Part shown: one piece after another, positions 7,354-25,441 of the stretch
Numbering within the stretch: the first letter of the stretch is position 1
Layout: each line of letters opens with the position of its first letter
Virus record (IMG/VR): IMGVR_UViG_3300032092_000210
Coordinates: 1-25,914 of that record
Source of the DNA: a virus
DNA length: 25,914 bases
Direction: 5' to 3' (one strand)
Notes under the pieces: generated by a model
Told to the model about the DNA's origin: nothing
The model's input: the letters and a program-made list of their open reading frames with translations, nothing else
Databases searched by the model: none
Program-made: the position numbers and the translations under genes

Positions 7354-7752
7354 CTACATTAAGTCTTTAAATTCCCTATCTACTGCTTTAGCAATTTCAT
7401 CTGCTACTTCATCAGCAATTTGATTGACATATTCATCAATCATTTTTTGTATTTGAGGGTCATTCAATGCTTGCTCAGCAAAGTTTATTGATTTAGGTAC
7501 GTTTGGTGTTTTACCATTTCTGACTGTAGATGACACGTTAGGGTCATTCCAAAACTTACCATATTCTGCACCTGGTGGCGATACATCTAATTCAAATTCA
7601 AAAGAGCGTGTTGTATTAGTTTTAGATTGCTTAATCATACCTGAAGGACGATTATAATCTGCTAACTTACGTTTTAGATTACCAGTCTTTTTAGGTGCTT
7701 TTAAAACAGCTAAATCCCTAATTCTATTTGCTATTTGTGCTAATGTTGCCAT
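7354..7752 (-). CDS. HK97 gp10-like head-tail connector/tail completion protein
   Basis: 132 residues. The N-terminus (IANRIRDLAVLKAPKKTGNLKR) has the APxxTGxLxxS/R pattern of the HK97 gp10 family, whose members help close the head-tail joint. The centre has the AEYGKFWNDP turn expected of the family's Y-[AG]-x-[FY] region, and the C-terminus is a long acidic helix (QIADEVADEIAKAVDREF). The length fits the family. The gene starts 2 nt after the adhesin gene's stop. A 47-nt gap separates it from the next gene and holds only a weak inverted repeat and a GGTTATTTA string. Placing it after the fiber and lectin genes, rather than next to the other connectors, is unusual. Confidence 0.62.
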   Translation of the reverse strand: MATLAQIANRIRDLAVLKAPKKTGNLKRKLADYNRPSGMIKQSKTNTTRSFEFELDVSPPGAEYGKFWNDPNVSSTVRNGKTPNVPKSINFAEQALNDPQIQKMIDEYVNQIADEVADEIAKAVDREFKDLM

Positions 7753-7754
7753 AA

Positions 7755-8876
7755 TTACGGAACTAATGAAGATGTAAAGTATCTATATCCCCAAAATGCT
7801 CCTGTTGTATCTTTCGTAATACTACCAAGGTTGTTAGCTATTGTTGTACCTACAATATAATTTCTTTGTTCCCTATTAGCAGTCGTACCTTCTGTTCCAA
7901 CTTCATTAGAAGTAAGAATCGAATTTCCTTTGGTAATTCTCCAGACTTGTGGCTGATTACTTAAAAGATTATTACTTTGTACACCAGATTGTGGAGCCCA
8001 TTGAACAGGCCATTGAATATGATTTGTAGTACTAGCAAACGATTCACTTACTGATGGCAAGAACCAATCATTATAACCATTTATACTAGCCGTAAATGCA
8101 TTTGCAGCAATTGAAGCAGTAGCAGGTGTAAAATTTCTTAAAGCTTGCGTATTACTTGCACCTGTTCCATATGCTTTATTATTTATATTAGTTATAGTAC
8201 CATAAAATCCCCATCTATTCGTAGCAGGTAGTACGGATGATGTTGCAACTGATGCAGTAGTTATAATTAATCCATTTTGATTTGGATAACTTCCTGTAAC
8301 ATATATTACCATTCCTCCACCTCTTAAATCTCCAACTTGTAAACTTCCTGAAACTATTGGTTGACAACTACCTGAATTAACTTGCTTAATTACTCCCGAA
8401 GGTCCATTATCATTTACGTCTATTGCTCCTGATATTGGCATAACAGCCCAAGGAAAAGAACATACAAATGAACCGGTAGATAATGGTGTAAATGGTCCTA
8501 TTGTTATCGCGGATGATGATGGTTGATTACATGGAACATATCTTATATAAGTTTCTGGTGCCGTTGATGTTTGATAAAAGAACTCATAACACGAACAAGA
8601 TTGACAATTTGTTTCCAAACATACTCTATCTAAATTAAAATTATTAACTGTTCCTGTGCCAGAAAAGTTATAATTTCTTTCTGCAACACAAATTCCTTGA
8701 TTTACAACAGTTGATGATGTGTATCTTATAATTTGTGTCACTTCACCATTACATGGTTGGTAAGTTAAATCAATATACTGACCAGATGCAATTGTTAATT
8801 GAAAATCCAAATAATTACAATTGCAAGATGCAATTACATTACCACTTCCACCCATAAACGACAAAGGAATATACAT
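7755..8876 (-). CDS. tail adhesin with Cys-rich modules and DUF1566 (Lcl-type) lectin-like domain
   Basis: 373 residues. Two Cys-rich modules come first: about residues 18-66 (ending near GICVAE, with YQPCNG in the middle) and about 96-141 (with IRYVPCNQ in the middle). From about residue 182 the protein shows the DUF1566/Lcl signature: GGGMVIYVTGSYPNQNGLII, then WGFYGT, a GTG-SNTQAL segment, and the diagnostic NGYNDWFLPS at 266-275, with QVWRITKGNS later. DUF1566 domains adopt C-type-lectin-like folds and bind surface ligands. Its place just after a long fiber gene (1 nt between stop and start) suggests a receptor-binding tip. The C-terminal ~90 residues are rich in Asn, Thr and Gln. Cytoplasmic enzyme roles are unlikely. 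The ligand is unknown. Confidence 0.7.
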   Translation of the reverse strand: MYIPLSFMGGSGNVIASCNCNYLDFQLTIASGQYIDLTYQPCNGEVTQIIRYTSSTVVNQGICVAERNYNFSGTGTVNNFNLDRVCLETNCQSCSCYEFFYQTSTAPETYIRYVPCNQPSSSAITIGPFTPLSTGSFVCSFPWAVMPISGAIDVNDNGPSGVIKQVNSGSCQPIVSGSLQVGDLRGGGMVIYVTGSYPNQNGLIITTASVATSSVLPATNRWGFYGTITNINNKAYGTGASNTQALRNFTPATASIAANAFTASINGYNDWFLPSVSESFASTTNHIQWPVQWAPQSGVQSNNLLSNQPQVWRITKGNSILTSNEVGTEGTTANREQRNYIVGTTIANNLGSITKDTTGAFWGYRYFTSSLVP

Positions 8877-8877
8877 A

Positions 8878-10827
8878 TTATATTAAATTTTTTGTTGATG
8901 CTGCAAATAAATTTGTAGTATCATATGTAACAAATGTAATTATATCAGTTGCACCAGATATAGCTGATGCTGAATATGCTAATAAATTTGGAAATTTAAT
9001 GTTTGATGGGTAAGTTAAACTACCAGTCGTTGCAGGTTGTAATACTTTTAAAGTTATTGTTTCACCTGGTTGTATATTTGTGGCAACTAATCTTGTAGTA
9101 GCTCCACTAGCTAATGTTAAAGTAAAGAAGTTACCCAATGAACAATCCATACTTGCAGTATTAGATGTGATTGTTAAAGGTACTACAACTCCTCTTACAC
9201 TTCCGCTAAATGTTGAATTACCCATTACATTTAATTCAACTGCTGCTGAAGATGAAAGTATTAAACTTCCTGTTATTGTTTGGTTACCATTAAATGAATT
9301 ACTTCCAGTCGTTGCATAAGAAGCAGTTGCTGCTGATAATTCATTTAATCTAGTTATTGTAGATGATGTAAATGATTGTAAAGATGAAGTAGCAAATTCT
9401 AAACTTCCTAATCTTTGATTTATAGAAGAAGTATAAGAATTAAATGAAGAAGTAAATAACTTCTGATTAATTTGATTTTGTAAGAATGATGCAGTTGCAT
9501 CTAATTCAGCTTGTGTAGCAAAATCAATTTGAAGAGATGAACTCCAACTTTGTAATTCAGTAAATTGAGAAGATACGGAAGAACTAAATGGCCCTTCTAA
9601 AAAATCTAATCTACTATCAACCGATGTTGAAAAGTTTATATATGTAGATGAAGTAAAATTCTCTAATGAATCTAATCTACTATCTACTGAAGTACTAAAA
9701 GGTCCTTCTAAGAAATCTAATCTACTATCTACTGATTGAGAGTAAGTTGTTACATTACCAATTCCACTAATTGTAGAAGAAGAAATATTTCCTTTAACAT
9801 CTAAATTAGCAGATATACCCATAGAACCTGTCAAAGAAGCGCTTCCTGACATTATCACGGAACCGATGAGGGTTTGTGTATCCGAAACCTCATCTCCTAA
9901 TATATTGCTCCCTGATGAGTAAATAATCGATGATGATTCTATTAGTGTTACTACCTTATTTGCGGTTAAAGTACCAACTACGTTTAAGTTATTTCTTACT
10001 TCAATATTAGAAGCAGTAATATCATTTGTGAATATAGTATTAGCTCCACTTGCAGTAAATGCTGCTCTTAATGAAGATGTATAATTTTCAATGTTAGTAA
10101 ATTCAGACCACAAAGATTGTGAGAATGTAGTTACGTTACCTATACCTGTTATAGTTGATGAACTTATTGCATTAGAAACAAATAGAGAACCTGTATTTCT
10201 TTGGCTTCCACTTACTTCTAAATCACCATTAATTCTTACATTATCATTTACAGTTACCTTACCTTCAATATCAAATGTACCTGATATAATAAGATTTTCA
10301 GAAACTTCTAAACTTCCGTATATGCGTGCAGTAGGTGAAGTTCTACCTGTGAATGTATAAGATTGTGCTATTTGTGGAGATTGACCTGCCATTGTAATAT
10401 AATAGCCGGATACCGATTTAGATACAGCTGTTACTACACCATTTGTAACGTTAATACCATTACATAACCAACCAACTTGCACATCGGCAATTGATGGAGG
10501 ATAATTATCAGATTGATAACTACCAGTCACATATACAGTATCCGTAAAAAATGGTTGTGTTGAGTTTGTATATGCCGGAGTAGATGCAGTAAAGTATGTA
10601 TTTAAACTAAATGCACCACTTAATTCAGTATCACTCATTACATTTAAATTTAATGTAGTTACTGAATTTGATGCTGATATATCACCTCGTGTATTTACTG
10701 ATATGCCTAATCCATTTCCAAGTCCATCTTGCAATTCTACTAAAGTAGCTGAAGCAGTTCTATCATTACCTAAATGAATAAGTGATGTATAACTTTGTGA
10801 AATGTATTGATTTGCTAAACTTCCCAT
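8878..10827 (-). CDS. long Ser/Thr-rich phage fiber protein
   Basis: 649 residues of low-complexity, Ser/Thr/Asn-rich sequence typical of marine and freshwater phage fibers. The N-terminus (YTSLIHLGNDRTASATLVEL then NGLGISVNTRGDISAS) looks like the virion-anchoring head of such fibers. The middle has beta-repeat tags such as GSLEVSENLIISG and VRINGDLEVSGS, then heptad-like coiled-coil repeats with SVDSRLDFLEGPF occurring twice and a shorter SVDSRLDSLENF copy between. A SYATTGSNSFNGNQTITGS linker leads to a C-terminal domain of ~130 residues that resembles the end of the 1285-residue fiber (both share a SxTFSGSV or SASFTGSV, then TSNTAS, then a TxLxVxxTNIxPG run). It is likely a trimer. The stop is 1 nt from the adhesin start. 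Confidence 0.7.
   Translation of the reverse strand: MGSLANQYISQSYTSLIHLGNDRTASATLVELQDGLGNGLGISVNTRGDISASNSVTTLNLNVMSDTELSGAFSLNTYFTASTPAYTNSTQPFFTDTVYVTGSYQSDNYPPSIADVQVGWLCNGINVTNGVVTAVSKSVSGYYITMAGQSPQIAQSYTFTGRTSPTARIYGSLEVSENLIISGTFDIEGKVTVNDNVRINGDLEVSGSQRNTGSLFVSNAISSSTITGIGNVTTFSQSLWSEFTNIENYTSSLRAAFTASGANTIFTNDITASNIEVRNNLNVVGTLTANKVVTLIESSSIIYSSGSNILGDEVSDTQTLIGSVIMSGSASLTGSMGISANLDVKGNISSSTISGIGNVTTYSQSVDSRLDFLEGPFSTSVDSRLDSLENFTSSTYINFSTSVDSRLDFLEGPFSSSVSSQFTELQSWSSSLQIDFATQAELDATASFLQNQINQKLFTSSFNSYTSSINQRLGSLEFATSSLQSFTSSTITRLNELSAATASYATTGSNSFNGNQTITGSLILSSSAAVELNVMGNSTFSGSVRGVVVPLTITSNTASMDCSLGNFFTLTLASGATTRLVATNIQPGETITLKVLQPATTGSLTYPSNIKFPNLLAYSASAISGATDIITFVTYDTTNLFAASTKNLI
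9581..9740 (-). repeat. internal direct repeats in the fiber gene
   Basis: Two near-identical copies of about 45 nt (9581-9625 and 9692-9736, about six mismatches by eye) encode SVDSRLDFLEGPF. A shorter related copy around 9669-9690 encodes SVDSRLDSLENF. They share the plus-strand core tctaatctactatc. They sit in the coiled-coil part of the fiber and could let it change length by recombination. Confidence 0.7.
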
Positions 10828-10844
10828 TTTATATTATTTATCTT

Positions 10845-11714
10845 TTAATCGTATTGCCACATTCTATATGCTACCGCAGAACCGGATGACCAGTTTTGAG
10901 GTGTTGTACTCCAAACTTGCGGATTAGCCCATAATTCACAATACTCACACGTTCCAAAATCAACATATGGTAAAGCAAGTATTGGCAAATTCACAAAATC
11001 AAAATCGTTCTCACCATTAAATGTATCTACAATAGTATAACAATTGTAGTCATAGTAGGTAGTGATGTCTCTTCTCGCATCTAATATATATTTGCTCATA
11101 AAGACCTGACCTATACTACCACTTTGGTTTAATACTGCCTTATATCTTTCACCCGTATCACACTCTTCAATTATATAGCCACTTCCCGAAGGGTTAACTA
11201 AAAAAAAAAGACAACGATTTTTATCGTTGTGAGTAGTTAACTCAAAGTTGGCTACCCACCCCGCCAGTCCGTTATTAAACCTATCGGAGAAGGGTTGACA
11301 AACAATATCTCCGTTTACTTCGAATCCCTGCACCCCCCTCTGTGTGTATGCGGTTAAATCGTTTAATACTGCAAGTGTGTTAGCGTGTATATCAACCATA
11401 TCATCCACTCCATAGAACGGAATTGTTTGAGCGTTTGTGCTACCTGATGATTCATTGTTTAATAGTTTCTGCTTATCAGCAATAGTTAACTGAACTGTAA
11501 AAGTAGTTGTTGATGTTTCAAATCTACTATCAGTTATTAACACATTACCCAACGGATATTCAGGATACTGCTTATCATCAATCGAATCAACATCACCATA
11601 GGTAACGGATTGAATCGATGGATGGTTCTTCATTATTGTCTTAAAGTAATTTAAAACATTGTAATAAAGAGAGTAGTTTACGCCTGTGTTATGTACAATT
11701 TGTTGATTAGCCAT
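10845..11714 (-). CDS. tail completion/head-tail connector protein with C-terminal extension
   Basis: 289 residues in zero frame. Residues 1 to ~172 resemble a Bacteroidota phage connector or tail-completion type: YYNVLNYFKTIMKNHPSIQS, VTYGDVDSID, a YPLGNVLITDSRF segment, a hydrophilic stretch with DDMVDIHANTLAVLNDL, and a closing DRFNNGLAGWVANFEL then NDKNRC. In relatives I remember, the protein ends about there. Here a T10 run follows, and the frame continues into a ~117-residue Cys-containing extension (GYIIEECDTGERYKAV, YNCYTIVDTF, FGTCEYC). If ribosomes slipped -1 on the T run they would stop after one Ser codon, giving a 173-residue core form. The gene lies 6 nt after the adaptor gene. 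The core role is inferred from family memory and position. Confidence 0.6.
   Translation of the reverse strand: MANQQIVHNTGVNYSLYYNVLNYFKTIMKNHPSIQSVTYGDVDSIDDKQYPEYPLGNVLITDSRFETSTTTFTVQLTIADKQKLLNNESSGSTNAQTIPFYGVDDMVDIHANTLAVLNDLTAYTQRGVQGFEVNGDIVCQPFSDRFNNGLAGWVANFELTTHNDKNRCLFFLVNPSGSGYIIEECDTGERYKAVLNQSGSIGQVFMSKYILDARRDITTYYDYNCYTIVDTFNGENDFDFVNLPILALPYVDFGTCEYCELWANPQVWSTTPQNWSSGSAVAYRMWQYD
11199..11210 (-). other. T10 slippery run, site 2
   Basis: In the sense strand the codons are CTT TTT TTT TTA (Leu-Phe-Phe-Leu), ten T in a row ending in the heptamer T TTT TTA, a classical -1 slippery pattern. A -1 slip gives AGT TAA, so translation ends at 11194-11196. Zero-frame reading gives the 289-residue form. 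The same 12-nt string in the same codon phase occurs at 21635-21646. Confidence 0.55.
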
Positions 11715-11720
11715 AGTTTA

Positions 11721-12239
11721 TTATAATTGTATTCCCTGGAAGTACTGATTGTCCTGCGCTGGATATATCTGCGTTTGATTTCCAACACTTTGTAAGTACT
11801 GCGGAATATTGTTTGAGTATGCAATCAAATAGTTTTGTAATCTCAACGCATAGTAGTCAGCATTGTTCTGAGCTTTCATTAATAGGTAATCTATCTCCGA
11901 TTTTGATGGAGCGACGCCTTGCTCACTTTGTTGCTTCACAGCGCCATTAGATTTGAATTGTACTGAACTGAATGGAATATATTCTACACAAGCATACCAC
12001 AAAAGTGTATATTTGATATGTTCATCCATTAAGTCCTGATAGTATGAATCCAATGTACTAAATGTATTTGTTTCAATCTTTGATTGTAGATATTCGAATA
12101 GTACTGTACCTAATAAATTCTTTAAGTACTTATCCTGCGCAGTTCTACAAAATGGTAATAGAGCATCTGCATCTATCGCACCTTGCAGTGGACTATTTTT
12201 GATTATATCGTTTCTTGTTATAAAAAGTGCGTACGCCAT
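11721..12239 (-). CDS. head-tail adaptor protein (DUF6712-like)
   Basis: 172 residues, mostly helical. The N-terminus (LFITRNDIIKNSPLQGAIDA then ALLPFCRTAQDKYLKNLLGT) matches the pattern I know from Bacteroidota phage adaptors: a short helix, a D-x-x-x-LLPF step, then A-Q-D-x-Y-[IL]-x-x-[IL]-LGT. After it come LMDEHIKYTLLWYACVEYIP and a KSEIDYLLMKAQNNADYYAL helix. The family sits just after the portal in many such phages and is thought to form the ring under it, as it does here (8 nt after the portal stop). The C-terminal 25 residues are Gln/Asn-rich and probably flexible. The adaptor role is inferred from position and general likeness, since no catalytic motif exists. Confidence 0.62.
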   Translation of the reverse strand: MAYALFITRNDIIKNSPLQGAIDADALLPFCRTAQDKYLKNLLGTVLFEYLQSKIETNTFSTLDSYYQDLMDEHIKYTLLWYACVEYIPFSSVQFKSNGAVKQQSEQGVAPSKSEIDYLLMKAQNNADYYALRLQNYLIAYSNNIPQYLQSVGNQTQIYPAQDNQYFQGIQL

Positions 12240-12247
12240 ATGTTTAA

Positions 12248-13555
12248 TTATTTAAATTCTTTTTCGAAAAATGCTGACTTAGTTCCAACTCTTCTTATCA
12301 AATCAATTTCATCTTTATCACTATTCATTTCAGTTATAGCAACATCTTCGTTTGTATCTACCGGCTCATCCTCAATAGTTGCAGGATTTTCCATTGAATC
12401 ATTTACTTCATCCTCAACTTGCTCAATACTCTTATCAGTTTCTTCAGCAGTTGTTGAAAGAATTACTAATGGAGTTAATTGCTCAAAATATAATTCAGTA
12501 TCAGCGTATCCACCACACGTTAATGCGTAATCAATTGCATTTAGCAAAATGTTTTGGAATGGCATGATTGTCATTGTTTGCATAATAGAGAATGCCGTTT
12601 TCATTTCTTCTGATTGAGAAGAGAATCCATTGTTAGCAGTTCTAATACCAAACAAAAGTGGTGATGTTACTCTATGCGATACTAAGATTCTGTCTTGCGC
12701 ATATTCCGCAACATACTCAAACTTTTCGTGTAGATTATCGATACTAATTGTATCAACGGTTGGTTTTGTGGTGACATCATCGTTAAATGATAACATAAAT
12801 CTACCAGCGTTATTTGTGCCTGTAAACTTAGCCTGTAATAAATCCTCAATAGTTTGTCTTTCTTCCGGTGCAGGTACTCCATTGTTAAAGTTTACCATAA
12901 CCATTGGTAAGAAACCATTTGTGATATTACTTAAATGTAAATTACTTAATTCAGCTTCACTAATACTGAATTGTAATGATGAAACATAATCAGGTAATGC
13001 ATAGTAATACAAACCTGGACAATAATGTTTGATATAAAGAATCTCCATTTTTTCATTTGATGTTTCAAACGCAGGAATCTTCTTTTTATCTTTTACTTTT
13101 CTTTGGTCATTCCAATCAGTACAATAATAGTAATTATCTATTCTCGGAGAACCATATAGTTTTTCAGCACGTAATGTTTGTACTGGTATGTGATACATTT
13201 TAATTATCTTAGTATGCTCATCGTTCCAATATACTTGGAATGCAGCATTACCAAACAATTTAAAATCAAATGATACTCTTTTTAATTCCTCTTGCGGAAG
13301 GATTTTAGCTAAAGTATTATTGAACTCTTCTTTTTTAGAGTAAATACCTTTACCAAATATCAAATCAGCAATACCTTCGATGGATGCTGCATTAGTTGTA
13401 GAGTGATTGTAAGCGGCTGTTACTGCATCAAAGAAATCATCATGTCCATAAACACCAAATGGCACCCAGCTATATCGAGTTTTTGTATCTTCCTGAATTA
13501 CAGGAAGTTGGTTTGTGTTTACGTTAACTACTGAAAATTTTTGTTGTTGTTTCAT
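12248..13555 (-). CDS. portal protein
   Basis: 435 residues, a length usual for siphovirus portals. It forms the dodecameric gate through which terminase pumps DNA. Features fit a portal of Bacteroidota type: N-terminal VPFGVYGHDDFFDAVTAAYN and the region IEGIADLIFGKGI; a wing segment with KLFGNAAFQVYW near residues 98-109; the YYYALPDYVSS stretch; the stem and crown region from about 270 with LHEKFEYVAEYAQDRILVSH, then RVTSPLLFGIRTANNGFSSQ and a long helix EEMKTAFSIMQTMTIMPFQN. The C-terminal ~70 residues are strongly acidic (DEVNDSMENPATIEDEPVDT). The gene starts 1 nt after the preceding gene's stop. The call rests on pattern plus neighbours (adaptor downstream, capsid upstream) rather than a single catalytic motif. 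Confidence 0.82.
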   Translation of the reverse strand: MKQQQKFSVVNVNTNQLPVIQEDTKTRYSWVPFGVYGHDDFFDAVTAAYNHSTTNAASIEGIADLIFGKGIYSKKEEFNNTLAKILPQEELKRVSFDFKLFGNAAFQVYWNDEHTKIIKMYHIPVQTLRAEKLYGSPRIDNYYYCTDWNDQRKVKDKKKIPAFETSNEKMEILYIKHYCPGLYYYALPDYVSSLQFSISEAELSNLHLSNITNGFLPMVMVNFNNGVPAPEERQTIEDLLQAKFTGTNNAGRFMLSFNDDVTTKPTVDTISIDNLHEKFEYVAEYAQDRILVSHRVTSPLLFGIRTANNGFSSQSEEMKTAFSIMQTMTIMPFQNILLNAIDYALTCGGYADTELYFEQLTPLVILSTTAEETDKSIEQVEDEVNDSMENPATIEDEPVDTNEDVAITEMNSDKDEIDLIRRVGTKSAFFEKEFK

Positions 13556-13979: not shown

Positions 13980-14011
13980 AAAAAAAGGGTACTACCGAAG
14001 TAATACCCTTT
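13980..14011 (-). terminator. rho-independent terminator with UUCG loop
   Basis: In the sense strand a 12-bp stem AAAGGGTATTAC / GTAGTACCCTTT (one G-U pair) closes a UUCG tetraloop as C(UUCG)G and runs into a T tract (T7 including three paired T). It sits 24 nt after the stop of the tube-like gene. This is the clearest terminator in the window and ends the scaffold-capsid-tube unit. Confidence 0.9.
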
Positions 14012-14034: not shown

Positions 14035-14571
14035 TTAGCTATATACGATAGTTGGTTGTGCTGATAAACCAGCGAATGGGTTAGTAGTTGTACTACCACT
14101 CAAAAATGCTGCTGGCAATTGCTCCATACCTGTGAAAGTTACTGAATAACCATAAAGGTCACCCATTGCACCCCCGGTTTGGATAGTACCTGCGGTAACA
14201 TCTGCACCTTCTCTTTCACCAACTAACAATGCATCTCCATTCATAGTCCATACAACGATTTGAGGTCTACCATAAGCCATTAGCTTTAATTGAGTAGTCA
14301 TTTCGTTAGTTAATTTCTTCAAATTAAGAGTTAACTCTTGAGAGAAGAAAGTAGTACCATTATCACGAGATGTGTTTACAGTTTCAGTATATGAGCTGTT
14401 TCCTTTTAATTCGTAGTAATATACAGTCGAACCCGAAGGTAAAGCGGTAACTTGACCACTTCCGTTTTTAGTAAAGGAGCCAGTAGTGTAGTTAATAAAG
14501 TAAACACCGGCTAAACCGCCTACTGATTCTTTACATACTTCCTGACGTCCTTGCGTTAATAAACAAGCCAT
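14035..14571 (-). CDS. probable tail tube (major tail) protein
   Basis: 178 residues, a type I have seen repeatedly next to capsid or tail genes in Bacteroidota phages. It starts MACLLTQGRQEVCKESVGGL, continues with VYFINYTTGS, and has the recognisable core SRDNGTTFFSQELTLNLKKL (about 69-88), LKLMAYGRPQIVVW, a GADVTAGTIQTGGAMGDLYG segment and FTGMEQLPAAFL. The alternating beta pattern and size suit a tail tube subunit. An alternative is a capsid-associated protein, because it directly follows the major capsid gene rather than lying with the tail genes. A strong terminator after it and its place in the capsid unit suggest high-level expression. Moderately sure it is a major virion protein, less sure of tube. 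Confidence 0.6.
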   Translation of the reverse strand: MACLLTQGRQEVCKESVGGLAGVYFINYTTGSFTKNGSGQVTALPSGSTVYYYELKGNSSYTETVNTSRDNGTTFFSQELTLNLKKLTNEMTTQLKLMAYGRPQIVVWTMNGDALLVGEREGADVTAGTIQTGGAMGDLYGYSVTFTGMEQLPAAFLSGSTTTNPFAGLSAQPTIVYS

Positions 14572-21368: not shown

Positions 21369-21637
21369 TTATCGGTTACTCATTTTAGCAACTGATTCTT
21401 TATGTAATAGATTTTCTAATACAACTTTATCAGCTCTATAAGCTAAGTATAACAGACATTTCTCTAACGGCTCTTTAACAATGACATCGAATTTGGTAAT
21501 GTCCCCATCGGCAAGCTCAACAATTGTAGCATATGATGCCCACTTCTTTGCAAAATTGGCTTGATGTTGGGAGGCAAGTCCATCTCCATCGAAGATTTCA
21601 GGGTAGCGCTCAGCAAGTCCGTTAATAAATTGAATAA
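21369..21637 (-). CDS. -1 frame C-terminus of the chaperone-like protein (frameshift extension)
   Basis: This open frame has no good start of its own. It continues the preceding gene if the ribosome or polymerase slips -1 on the T10 run at 21636-21645, and would make a 256-residue fused product (168 + 88). The sequence IQFINGLAERYPEIFDGDGL, then ANFAKKWASYATIVELADGD, then FDVIVKEPLEKCLLYLAYRA is balanced in charge and hydrophobicity. It matches the C-terminal part I remember for this Bacteroidota phage family (W-x-x-S/Y-I-x-x-L-A-x-G-D-I-T-K-F, then P-L-x-x-C-L-x-Y-L). The zero-frame tail does not look like a natural protein end by comparison. The alternatives are a sequencing error in the homopolymer or a real disabling mutation. 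Confidence 0.6.
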
Positions 21638-22138
21638 AAAAAAAAGTGCCCCAAAATGAACATGCATTGGCACATCTAAGAACTTCTCTGAATTATCTTC
21701 AGCTACATATGGTTTAATAGAATAGTATTTGCCTATTTTTTTATCTATTGGTCTGTATAAGATATTCATTATCTTAATCCAATTCTCATCTATCTGAATT
21801 GTTTCAAACTTAGTAATGTCAGAATAAGCACCATAACTCATCTCTCCCAAATTAGGTTCAAAGCCGTATTCAACGCCATCTATTGTAATAAATTGCTGTA
21901 AAGGTAATTCAGTATTCATTAAGAATGAGCCTAGCTCACCTTTAATCATATTGTAATCATCTACGGATAATCCTCTTAGATATTCAGCCGGCAAATTACA
22001 TAAGTGCATAAGAAGTAAAGCAACAGTTGCTTCTTCATCATCTTCATATGATTTTAATTCGTTTTGTAATTGTAGCCATTTCTTTAGGTTGATATCTGCA
22101 TAAGATGTAGGTATCTTAATTTCTAATTCCTTTACCAT
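21464..22138 (-). CDS. conserved tail-assembly-chaperone-like protein, zero-frame form
   Basis: 224 residues as read straight through. Residues 1-168 look like the N-terminal part of a Bacteroidota phage protein often found among tail genes: VKELEIKIPTSYADINLKKW, VDGVEYGFEPNLGEM-type segment (here IDGVEYGFEPNLGEMSYGAY), MNILYRPIDKKIGKYYSI, then a PMHVHFGALFF hydrophobic segment. After the T10 run the zero frame adds 56 residues rich in Pro, Leu, Met and Ser that look out of frame. The arrangement (short form plus -1 extension) is what lambda G/GT-type tail chaperones use, but the tape measure here is far away, so the chaperone role is an inference. The ATG overlaps the preceding stop by 7 nt (ATGGTAA). 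Confidence 0.6.
   Translation of the reverse strand: MVKELEIKIPTSYADINLKKWLQLQNELKSYEDDEEATVALLLMHLCNLPAEYLRGLSVDDYNMIKGELGSFLMNTELPLQQFITIDGVEYGFEPNLGEMSYGAYSDITKFETIQIDENWIKIMNILYRPIDKKIGKYYSIKPYVAEDNSEKFLDVPMHVHFGALFFLFNLLTDLLSATLKSSMEMDLPPNIKPILQRSGHHMLQLLSLPMGTLPNSMSLLKSR
21635..21646 (-). other. T10 slippery run, site 1
   Basis: The sense codons are CTT TTT TTT TTA (Leu-Phe-Phe-Leu), ten T ending in the slippery heptamer T TTT TTA. A -1 slip enters the long open frame that ends at 21369. Zero frame ends at 21464. I see no strong stimulatory hairpin within about 15 nt downstream. Confidence 0.6.
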
Positions 22139-24267: not shown

Positions 24268-24676
24268 ATTCTTCCCACGTTATATTGCGTGTATCGGGGT
24301 AATCACTTTCTATCCTTTTTTGTTTTTTAATTGGTTCATCACCATCATGTGCATTAATCCATTTTAAAACATCTTCACTTAGATTTAGTAATCTATTCCG
24401 CATTAACTCTCTCCATTCTTCTCTCGTCTTACATTTAAATGTTTTACTAGCCAATGATTTAAAGTAATTGCCTGTTGTAGAATGTCCTTCACTCAATGGG
24501 TATGGTACTCTTCCTATAAATCCAATTCTTTTACCTTCTCTTATTGATGCTTCCCTTTGATAATGTTTAGATGCTTCTCTTTGACATTCTACACAGGTAT
24601 TAGTAGCGTGTTTATGTTTTTGTGGTATATCTTTTACTTCTCCACACTTAATGCATGTTCTACTTTCAATTCTCAT
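24230..24676 (-). CDS. zinc-ribbon protein, possibly DNA-binding
   Basis: 148 residues. A CxxC-x16-CxxC zinc ribbon lies at C8, C11, C28 and C31 (RTCIKCGEVKDIPQKHKHAT, then NTCVECQREASKHYQ), followed by a basic helix. This N-terminal layout occurs in phage endonuclease VII-like and HNH-associated proteins, but I see no His-Asn-His or other nuclease core here. The middle (GNYFKSLASKTFKCKTREEW, then RELMRNRLLNLSEDVLKWIN) is helical, and the C-terminus is acidic. It overlaps the end of the sigma factor gene by 11 nt, so the two are coexpressed. A DNA-binding or regulatory role is plausible but unproven. Confidence 0.58.
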   Translation of the reverse strand: MRIESRTCIKCGEVKDIPQKHKHATNTCVECQREASKHYQREASIREGKRIGFIGRVPYPLSEGHSTTGNYFKSLASKTFKCKTREEWRELMRNRLLNLSEDVLKWINAHDGDEPIKKQKRIESDYPDTRNITWEEYERGLGDNEVDS

Positions 24677-25217
24677 CGTATGGATTATTTATAACTTCTT
24701 TTAAATACTTTCTTATTTTCTTTACAGCTAAGAAAGTTGTACTTTTACTTATTTTAATGTCTTTTGCTACTTCATCCAATGTTCTTTCACTCATCCAATA
24801 TAACTGAAAGATACGAGCTGATGGCCACATCTTTGTTGTTTCTAAATGTTTTAATTCATTCATTACGTCATCGAATGCTTTCTGAATTGCTGCATCTTTT
24901 TCTTCATCATAAGGTATGTCAATTTCATCAGAATATATTTCTTCTTTTAGTGTTATCTTTGAATTTCTTTTTTGTTTGTTAATCCATCTATGTTTCAAAA
25001 ATTGCTGGCAGTACATTATGTTATAAGAGTTTCCCCAAAAGATAGATGGGTTACACTTTTCAGCTAAGTAAAGATAGAGTTCCTGCACTAAATCATCTGC
25101 AGAATCTCTATCCTTAGTTACATTTAATGCCATATTAAATAACCATTTGTGCGAATCAATATAAAGGACTTCTAGTCTTTTATTACATTCGGTTAATAAT
25201 AGGCTTCCACTAATCAT
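24666..25217 (-). CDS. phage sigma-70-like (ECF-type) factor
   Basis: 183 residues from the ATG at 25217, which overlaps the preceding stop as TAATG. A TTG 21 nt further up (25238) would also be in frame but is the weaker choice. Residues about 10-75 fit sigma region 2 (RLEVLYIDSHKWLFNMALNV, then DRDSADDLVQELYLYLAEKC, the usual A-[DE]-DL-[VT]-Q-E core). A charged acidic linker follows. Residues about 125-175 fit region 4 with its helix-turn-helix (ARIFQLYWMSERTLDEVAKD, then SKSTTFLAVKKIRKYLKE). It would bind host RNA polymerase and direct it to phage promoters. The recurring intergenic motif before late units is a natural candidate target. Divergent from housekeeping factors, but both regions are visible. 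Confidence 0.72.
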   Translation of the reverse strand: MISGSLLLTECNKRLEVLYIDSHKWLFNMALNVTKDRDSADDLVQELYLYLAEKCNPSIFWGNSYNIMYCQQFLKHRWINKQKRNSKITLKEEIYSDEIDIPYDEEKDAAIQKAFDDVMNELKHLETTKMWPSARIFQLYWMSERTLDEVAKDIKISKSTTFLAVKKIRKYLKEVINNPYDEN

Positions 25218-25441
25218 TATTTTCTTTCTTTTATCCAATTATGTAAATAATCAACGGCTCTTTTCCAATGCGCTCCACTGCTTGCGCAAGTACACGGACG
25301 TGGTTCGTTTTCGTTTCTTAACTTATTAAAGTTATCCCAAATGTATGGTGCTTTGTTTTCAGGTAGATATGCTCCTATTTCTGATAAGGTTTTATCTAAT
25401 TCCTGAAACTCTTCAAATGTCAATGGATAATACTTTTCCAT
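25217..25441 (-). CDS. small unknown protein with CTC motif
   Basis: 74 residues. The C-terminal part (RPCTCASSGAHWKRAVDYLH, then NWIKERK) has a pattern I have seen in other Bacteroidota phage miniproteins (PC-[ST]-C-x-SSG, a W, then a basic helix), with no known function. The N-terminus (YYPLTFEEFQELDKTLSEIG) is a probable helix. The ATG is 1 nt after the upstream stop, and its own stop overlaps the sigma factor start, so the three genes form one coupled unit. Confidence 0.58.
   Translation of the reverse strand: MEKYYPLTFEEFQELDKTLSEIGAYLPENKAPYIWDNFNKLRNENEPRPCTCASSGAHWKRAVDYLHNWIKERK

Follow-up and report, generated by a model that had tools for sequence, protein, structure and literature searches.

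A conserved hairpin and ten-T run as a probable transcriptional slippage site in a predicted phage tail terminator gene

What does an uninterrupted run of ten T's do in the middle of a phage structural gene? The window, i.e., the whole stretch of 25,914 nucleotides analysed here (IMG/VR record IMGVR_UViG_3300032092_000210), holds only two runs of eight or more T's, with both strands counted, at 11209–11200 and 21645–21636. Both lie inside the same 12-mer, for which 0.05 chance matches are expected in the window. The initial annotation had pointed to this repetition, in the same phase and encoding Leu-Phe-Phe-Leu each time, and it was borne out. At the first site, the 12-mer occupies 11210–11199 on the minus strand and reads CTTTTTTTTTTA, with its codons CTT TTT TTT TTA being codons 169–172 of a minus-strand open reading frame of 289 aa (10845–11714). 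Zero-frame reading past the run appends 117 residues, the number that had been estimated.

Slippage at this run has consequences in both directions. When one T is gained, or a −1 shift is made, the reading becomes CTT TTT TTT TTT AGT TAA and the product ends after 173 aa at a TAA on the minus strand (11194–11196), exactly as first read, one codon beyond the run. When one T is lost, CTT TTT TTT TAG is read and the product ends after 171 aa (TAG at 11198–11200, minus strand). The proposal that slipping shortens the protein therefore stands, with the correction that not only a −1 slip but slips of either sign terminate. Neither this TAG nor the hairpin found on the 5′ side of the run figured in the initial annotation.

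None of the family models searched with the 289-aa protein names it. An AlphaFold2 model built from 60 relatives, with an only moderate mean pLDDT of 66.8, divides into an N-terminal domain and a C-terminal beta domain joined by a linker of low confidence (residues 164–176); the boundary between core and extension falls within that linker. In this predicted model, residues 13–163 (11226–11678, minus strand) match lambda gpU with a Z of 11.8 and an rmsd of 3.1 over 122 residues, and they also match the pyocin R2 collar, T5 p142, the corresponding chains of Mu, Chi and Milano, and dozens of further neck and terminator chains. We consider that the gene probably encodes a phage tail terminator of the lambda gpU / SPP1 gp17 type with an optional C-terminal module; relatives match it over its full length. 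The T run had been placed at the core/extension boundary of a connector-class protein, which agrees with these results, and the core can now be specified as a tail terminator fold. The gene sits in the head–tail connector block, near the portal and adaptor: the portal gene lies upstream (12248–13555), with a DUF6712 gene in between (11721–12239), and an HK97-gp10-like neck gene is found at 7354–7752 on the minus strand. Elsewhere in the window, a 178-aa structural gene (14035–14571) is followed by a strong hairpin and T tail resembling a terminator (13984–14011), and an ORF at 24666–25238, upstream of the structural gene block, resembles a sigma-factor-type protein by reading of its translation.

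Relatives of the gene come from environmental contigs, five scans of viral contigs having produced about 265 loci with the terminator gene. No cultured relative was found by tblastn of the 289-aa protein against 50,697 phage records, and a search of bacterial genomes for relatives of the same protein found none. The nearest cultured relatives by portal and another structural protein are the Nonlabens phages P12024S/L (29–37% identity). Since these phages come from a marine flavobacterium, a Bacteroidetes host is likely for this aquatic phage family. P12024S/L were also considered as carriers of the terminator gene itself and were rejected, as their structural region has no match to the terminator family profile.

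Among the genes with an extension, T10 in the same phase is present in 86/89, 48/49, 31/32 and 11/11 cases at 95, 85, 75 and 65% redundancy, respectively, compared with about 5% (0.05) expected from the genes' own codon use. This exact length persists across about 50% protein divergence. In 2.47 Mb of relatives, runs of ten or more T's occur 228 times at the terminator site and four times elsewhere; three of these four are the chaperone site, judged by position, and the fourth is probably the terminator site too, in a contig where a frameshift precedes it. Our run length rests on the 228 T10 loci from metagenome contigs. Most codons flanking the run are near background synonymous conservation, and the highest eight-codon windows are those covering the hairpin and the run.

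Could such a run arise with nothing programmed at all, simply because the protein needs Leu-Phe-Phe-Leu and T-rich codons are common? The genomes are AT-rich and Leu-Phe-Phe-Leu is invariant in 60 aligned long proteins, as this explanation expects. However, CTT makes up only about 12% of Leu codons and yet is found in all T10 genes except the two in which the first residue changed from Leu to Ile (ATT in L057 and L280), where T10 is still kept. TTC, 22% of Phe codons, is absent at the run; CGT is kept in the hairpin despite AGA being the dominant Arg codon; and the same four residues are encoded without any run at three loci (L039, L115 and L116). We give an unprogrammed origin almost no credence. 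A DNA-level contingency locus, in which replication slippage toggles phages between fibre-bearing and bare states, has slightly more in its favour and is still very improbable: the only indels at the run, a T9 (L218) and a T11 (L219), both give the short form, but they are two deviants in roughly 230 loci that otherwise hold T10 exactly over so large a protein divergence. Phase-variable tracts normally vary in length. These two loci, together with L199, which has a frameshift just upstream of the run, are either sequencing errors or real variants.

The genomes fall into three classes that relate the run to the two protein forms. Genomes with one long gene always have T10, with 0 of about 200 loci lacking it. 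In the 22 core-only genomes, the gene ends 4–12 residues past the boundary and a T run is never present. In the third class, two adjacent genes are found, short then long, and the long gene usually has T10; most of these genomes retain it despite already encoding a short form. The conservation of the run with the extension, which the initial annotation had proposed to check by aligning homologues, is thus clear from the 48/49 extension genes at 85% redundancy set beside 0/22 core-only genes. Extension genes without a T run, named there as evidence against slippage, were found only at L039, L115 and L116, and each has next to it a distinct short gene, which encodes the core and ends LFELYPN. 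Their run region reads TTG TTC TTC TTA and similar, with the hairpin pairing also lost. From these classes, it follows that the core is complete without its extension and that the run disappeared only from genomes in which the short form has a gene of its own.

If slippage is the function of the run, stops should be maintained in both other frames, and this is the pattern that we observe. Loss of one T gives an immediate stop in 55/56 nonredundant genes, and after one T is gained 56/56 reach a stop within nine codons, via 24 different sequences; both patterns are tighter than any of 400 synonymous reshufflings, although these stop counts are not independent of phylogeny. TTG occurs as the last Leu codon only where the next base is A, the base required for the immediate stop (Fisher p = 9e-6 at 85% redundancy, with few independent changes behind it). 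A tree-based test of this pair, TTG then A, gave a median p of 0.25, there being too few independent events.

The second conserved element is a hairpin whose 8-bp stem is perfect and closes an AAAA loop, ACAACGAT-AAAA-ATCGTTGT, located at 11230–11211 on the minus strand, one base 5′ of the T run (z −3.7). In 49 relatives, the hairpin has a mean of −5.5 kcal/mol, compared with −0.2 for synonymous shuffles, and structure directly 5′ of the run has a z of −2.95 across relatives. On the 3′ side, no RNA structure was detected in windows within codons +4 to +34 (z about 0). No compensatory pair changes were seen in the hairpin among relatives, and one locus (L066) has T10 with a broken hairpin. The hairpin is mostly kept in short paralogues that have no run and whose proteins have widely diverged (L062:9298–9816, L039:2987–3511 and similar), and given this retention it may have another role; gene conversion is a possible cause of its presence in the short copies. 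The sequence at codons 8 to 30 before the run (11220–11310) also folds somewhat better than synonymous shuffles, with a mean z of about −1.5 across relatives.

A hairpin followed by a T run fits the pattern of an intrinsic terminator, and shared features of slippage stimulators and terminators are named in the title of the Penno et al. 2015 paper, as cited in PMC5009743. The element could then be a true terminator that reduces how much the fibre and tail-tip genes downstream of it are transcribed, with slippage being incidental. Termination at this point, however, would leave a core mRNA with no stop codon, and the stops in both other frames would have no explanation; nor would the location of the run exactly at the module boundary and its absence from core-only genomes. 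We regard this alternative as very unlikely, while partial termination may occur in addition to slippage.

The short form could also be made without polymerase slippage, by ribosomes shifting to the −1 frame at U UUU UUU or U UUU UUA, a reading that is more probable than the alternatives above and still unlikely. The run contains in-frame −1 heptamers (T TTT TTT, T TTT TTA/G), a stop in the −1 frame is preserved in 56/56 genes and this route is known in tail chaperones (PMC5009743). On the other hand, a heptamer takes seven bases, yet the terminator gene conserves ten T's and the chaperone gene never has fewer than nine. A −1 shift has no use for a stop in the remaining frame, although that stop is preserved just as well (55/56), and the 3′ side has no detected structure and little synonymous constraint. 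A 5′ hairpin without 3′ structure suits slippage mediated by a nascent stem-loop, whereas ribosomal frameshifting is usually stimulated from the 3′ side. The stops for slips of either sign, the 5′ hairpin and the lack of a 3′ signal therefore indicate slippage by RNA polymerase, which in our judgement is favoured over ribosomal frameshifting by about 5 to 1.

We hypothesize that the hairpin, fresh from the exit channel, would loosen the RNA–DNA hybrid while the polymerase copies T10, so that a fraction of transcripts would gain or lose U's. Such transcripts would meet a prompt stop and give a bare terminator of 171–173 aa unless their length changed by a multiple of three, while faithful transcripts would give the 289-aa form, whose extension would dock the neck fibre encoded next door. 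The ring that caps the tail would then mix bare and fibre-bearing subunits in proportions set by the slippage rate. The comparison of relatives strongly supports a conserved and selected slippage site that would make a bare and a decorated tail terminator; for the full explanation, hairpin-aided polymerase slippage at T10 giving bare and fibre-docking forms, taken jointly with the identity of the gene, we estimate a probability of roughly 0.7.

The proposed role of the extension comes from its company. This 117-aa module (10848–11198, minus strand) contains four invariant Cys. A PDB search for a known fold gave no convincing match (best E 0.27, Z 4.9), and a BFVD search returned only uncharacterised phage homologues. 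A fibre gene with a conserved head (8878–10827, minus strand) lies directly downstream; of the genomes whose extension is separate, 138/139 have it in this position (109/110, 26/26 and 3/3), against 0/22 core-only and 0/3 fused genomes. In the latter two groups, the terminator gene is followed directly by the gp10-like gene, with a median distance of 23 bp in the core-only genomes. A second adhesin-like gene (7755–8876, minus strand), with a GYNDWFLPS stretch that resembles the Lcl_C domain by eye, has no separate counterpart in L156, L288 and L229. In L156, L160, L261/L262 and L288, the extension continues in frame for hundreds of residues and T10 is kept in all of them. The fused terminators with long adhesin-like tails (L156:3648–6926, L160:5995–8145, L288:3903–6077) have Thr-rich linkers, with a Gly_rich_2 domain in the tail of L156 and an Lcl_C-like stretch, scoring below the curated cut-off, in that of L160; the separate fibre genes are missing in L156 and L288. 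Because the extension either co-occurs with the downstream fibre gene or is fused to adhesin domains, the simplest reading of these gene arrangements is that it probably docks or carries neck fibres. The Cys content of the extension had been recognized in the initial annotation; its description as adhesin-like fits less well than that of a docking module, since the extension tracks the fibre gene.

The other copy of the 12-mer lies at 21635–21646 (minus strand) in the tail assembly chaperone gene (21464–22138, minus strand), where the −1 frame stays open over about 88 aa until the stop at 21369–21371. Across the 38 relatives covering it, this frame is open for about 85–93 aa in all, and the run is T9 or T10 in 38/38, in all three codon phases and never shorter than T9, where a heptamer would suffice ribosomally. 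This is an ordinary chaperone recoding site, and polymerase slippage is plausibly its mechanism too. A conserved hairpin was also considered here and rejected: the window's own sequence folds no better than shuffles (z −0.8) and the upstream sequences of relatives differ. The idea that one slippage rate sets the dose of both products does not hold up well, as a single shared rate is unlikely for a chaperone site with T9 or T10 in varying phase and no conserved hairpin. More tentatively, and with chances slightly below even, slippage may set the number of fibre-bearing ring subunits across this aquatic phage clade, with the chaperone T run answering to the same polymerase property.

Known systems share parts of this arrangement. 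In Thermus thermophilus dnaX (tau/gamma), slippage at a T9 with stops in both non-zero frames leads to truncation (PMC5009743), and likewise here the long form is in one frame and nearby stops in both others would truncate it. Unlike dnaX, which encodes a bacterial polymerase subunit, the present gene would encode a virion part and has a T10 with a hairpin on its 5′ side. Stem-loop-mediated slippage is described for a Roseiflexus IS element (Penno et al. 2015, as presented in PMC5009743), in which the nascent RNA stem-loop is also directly 5′ of the slippery run; according to that account, however, a T5C5 run directs the loss of one nucleotide that joins two frames, whereas the T10 would truncate. 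The tail tube proteins gp17.1/gp17.1* of SPP1, made at about 3:1, and TpeX of 936 phages (PMC6316719, PMC6669499) are likewise structural proteins with and without a C-terminal surface module, and theirs is a set ratio. In those phages, the tail tube gains its module by a ribosomal frameshift, while in the present case slippage would strip it from the terminator ring. The second T10 site of the window resembles the gpG/gpGT frameshift of the tail assembly chaperone, in that slipping extends a protein that is not part of the virion, the opposite logic to that of the terminator site. The structural-protein cases that we found in the literature add a module by ribosomal frameshift, and our search found no published report of a phage structural gene with programmed transcriptional slippage.

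If true, our explanation would mean that these phages have a transcriptional route to partial virion decoration, with a ring that is mixed by design and a module that is removed by slipping. Natural controls are at hand in the core-only, fused and separate-short-gene genomes, and the slippage reading is a testable prediction of how phages may ration their neck fibres.
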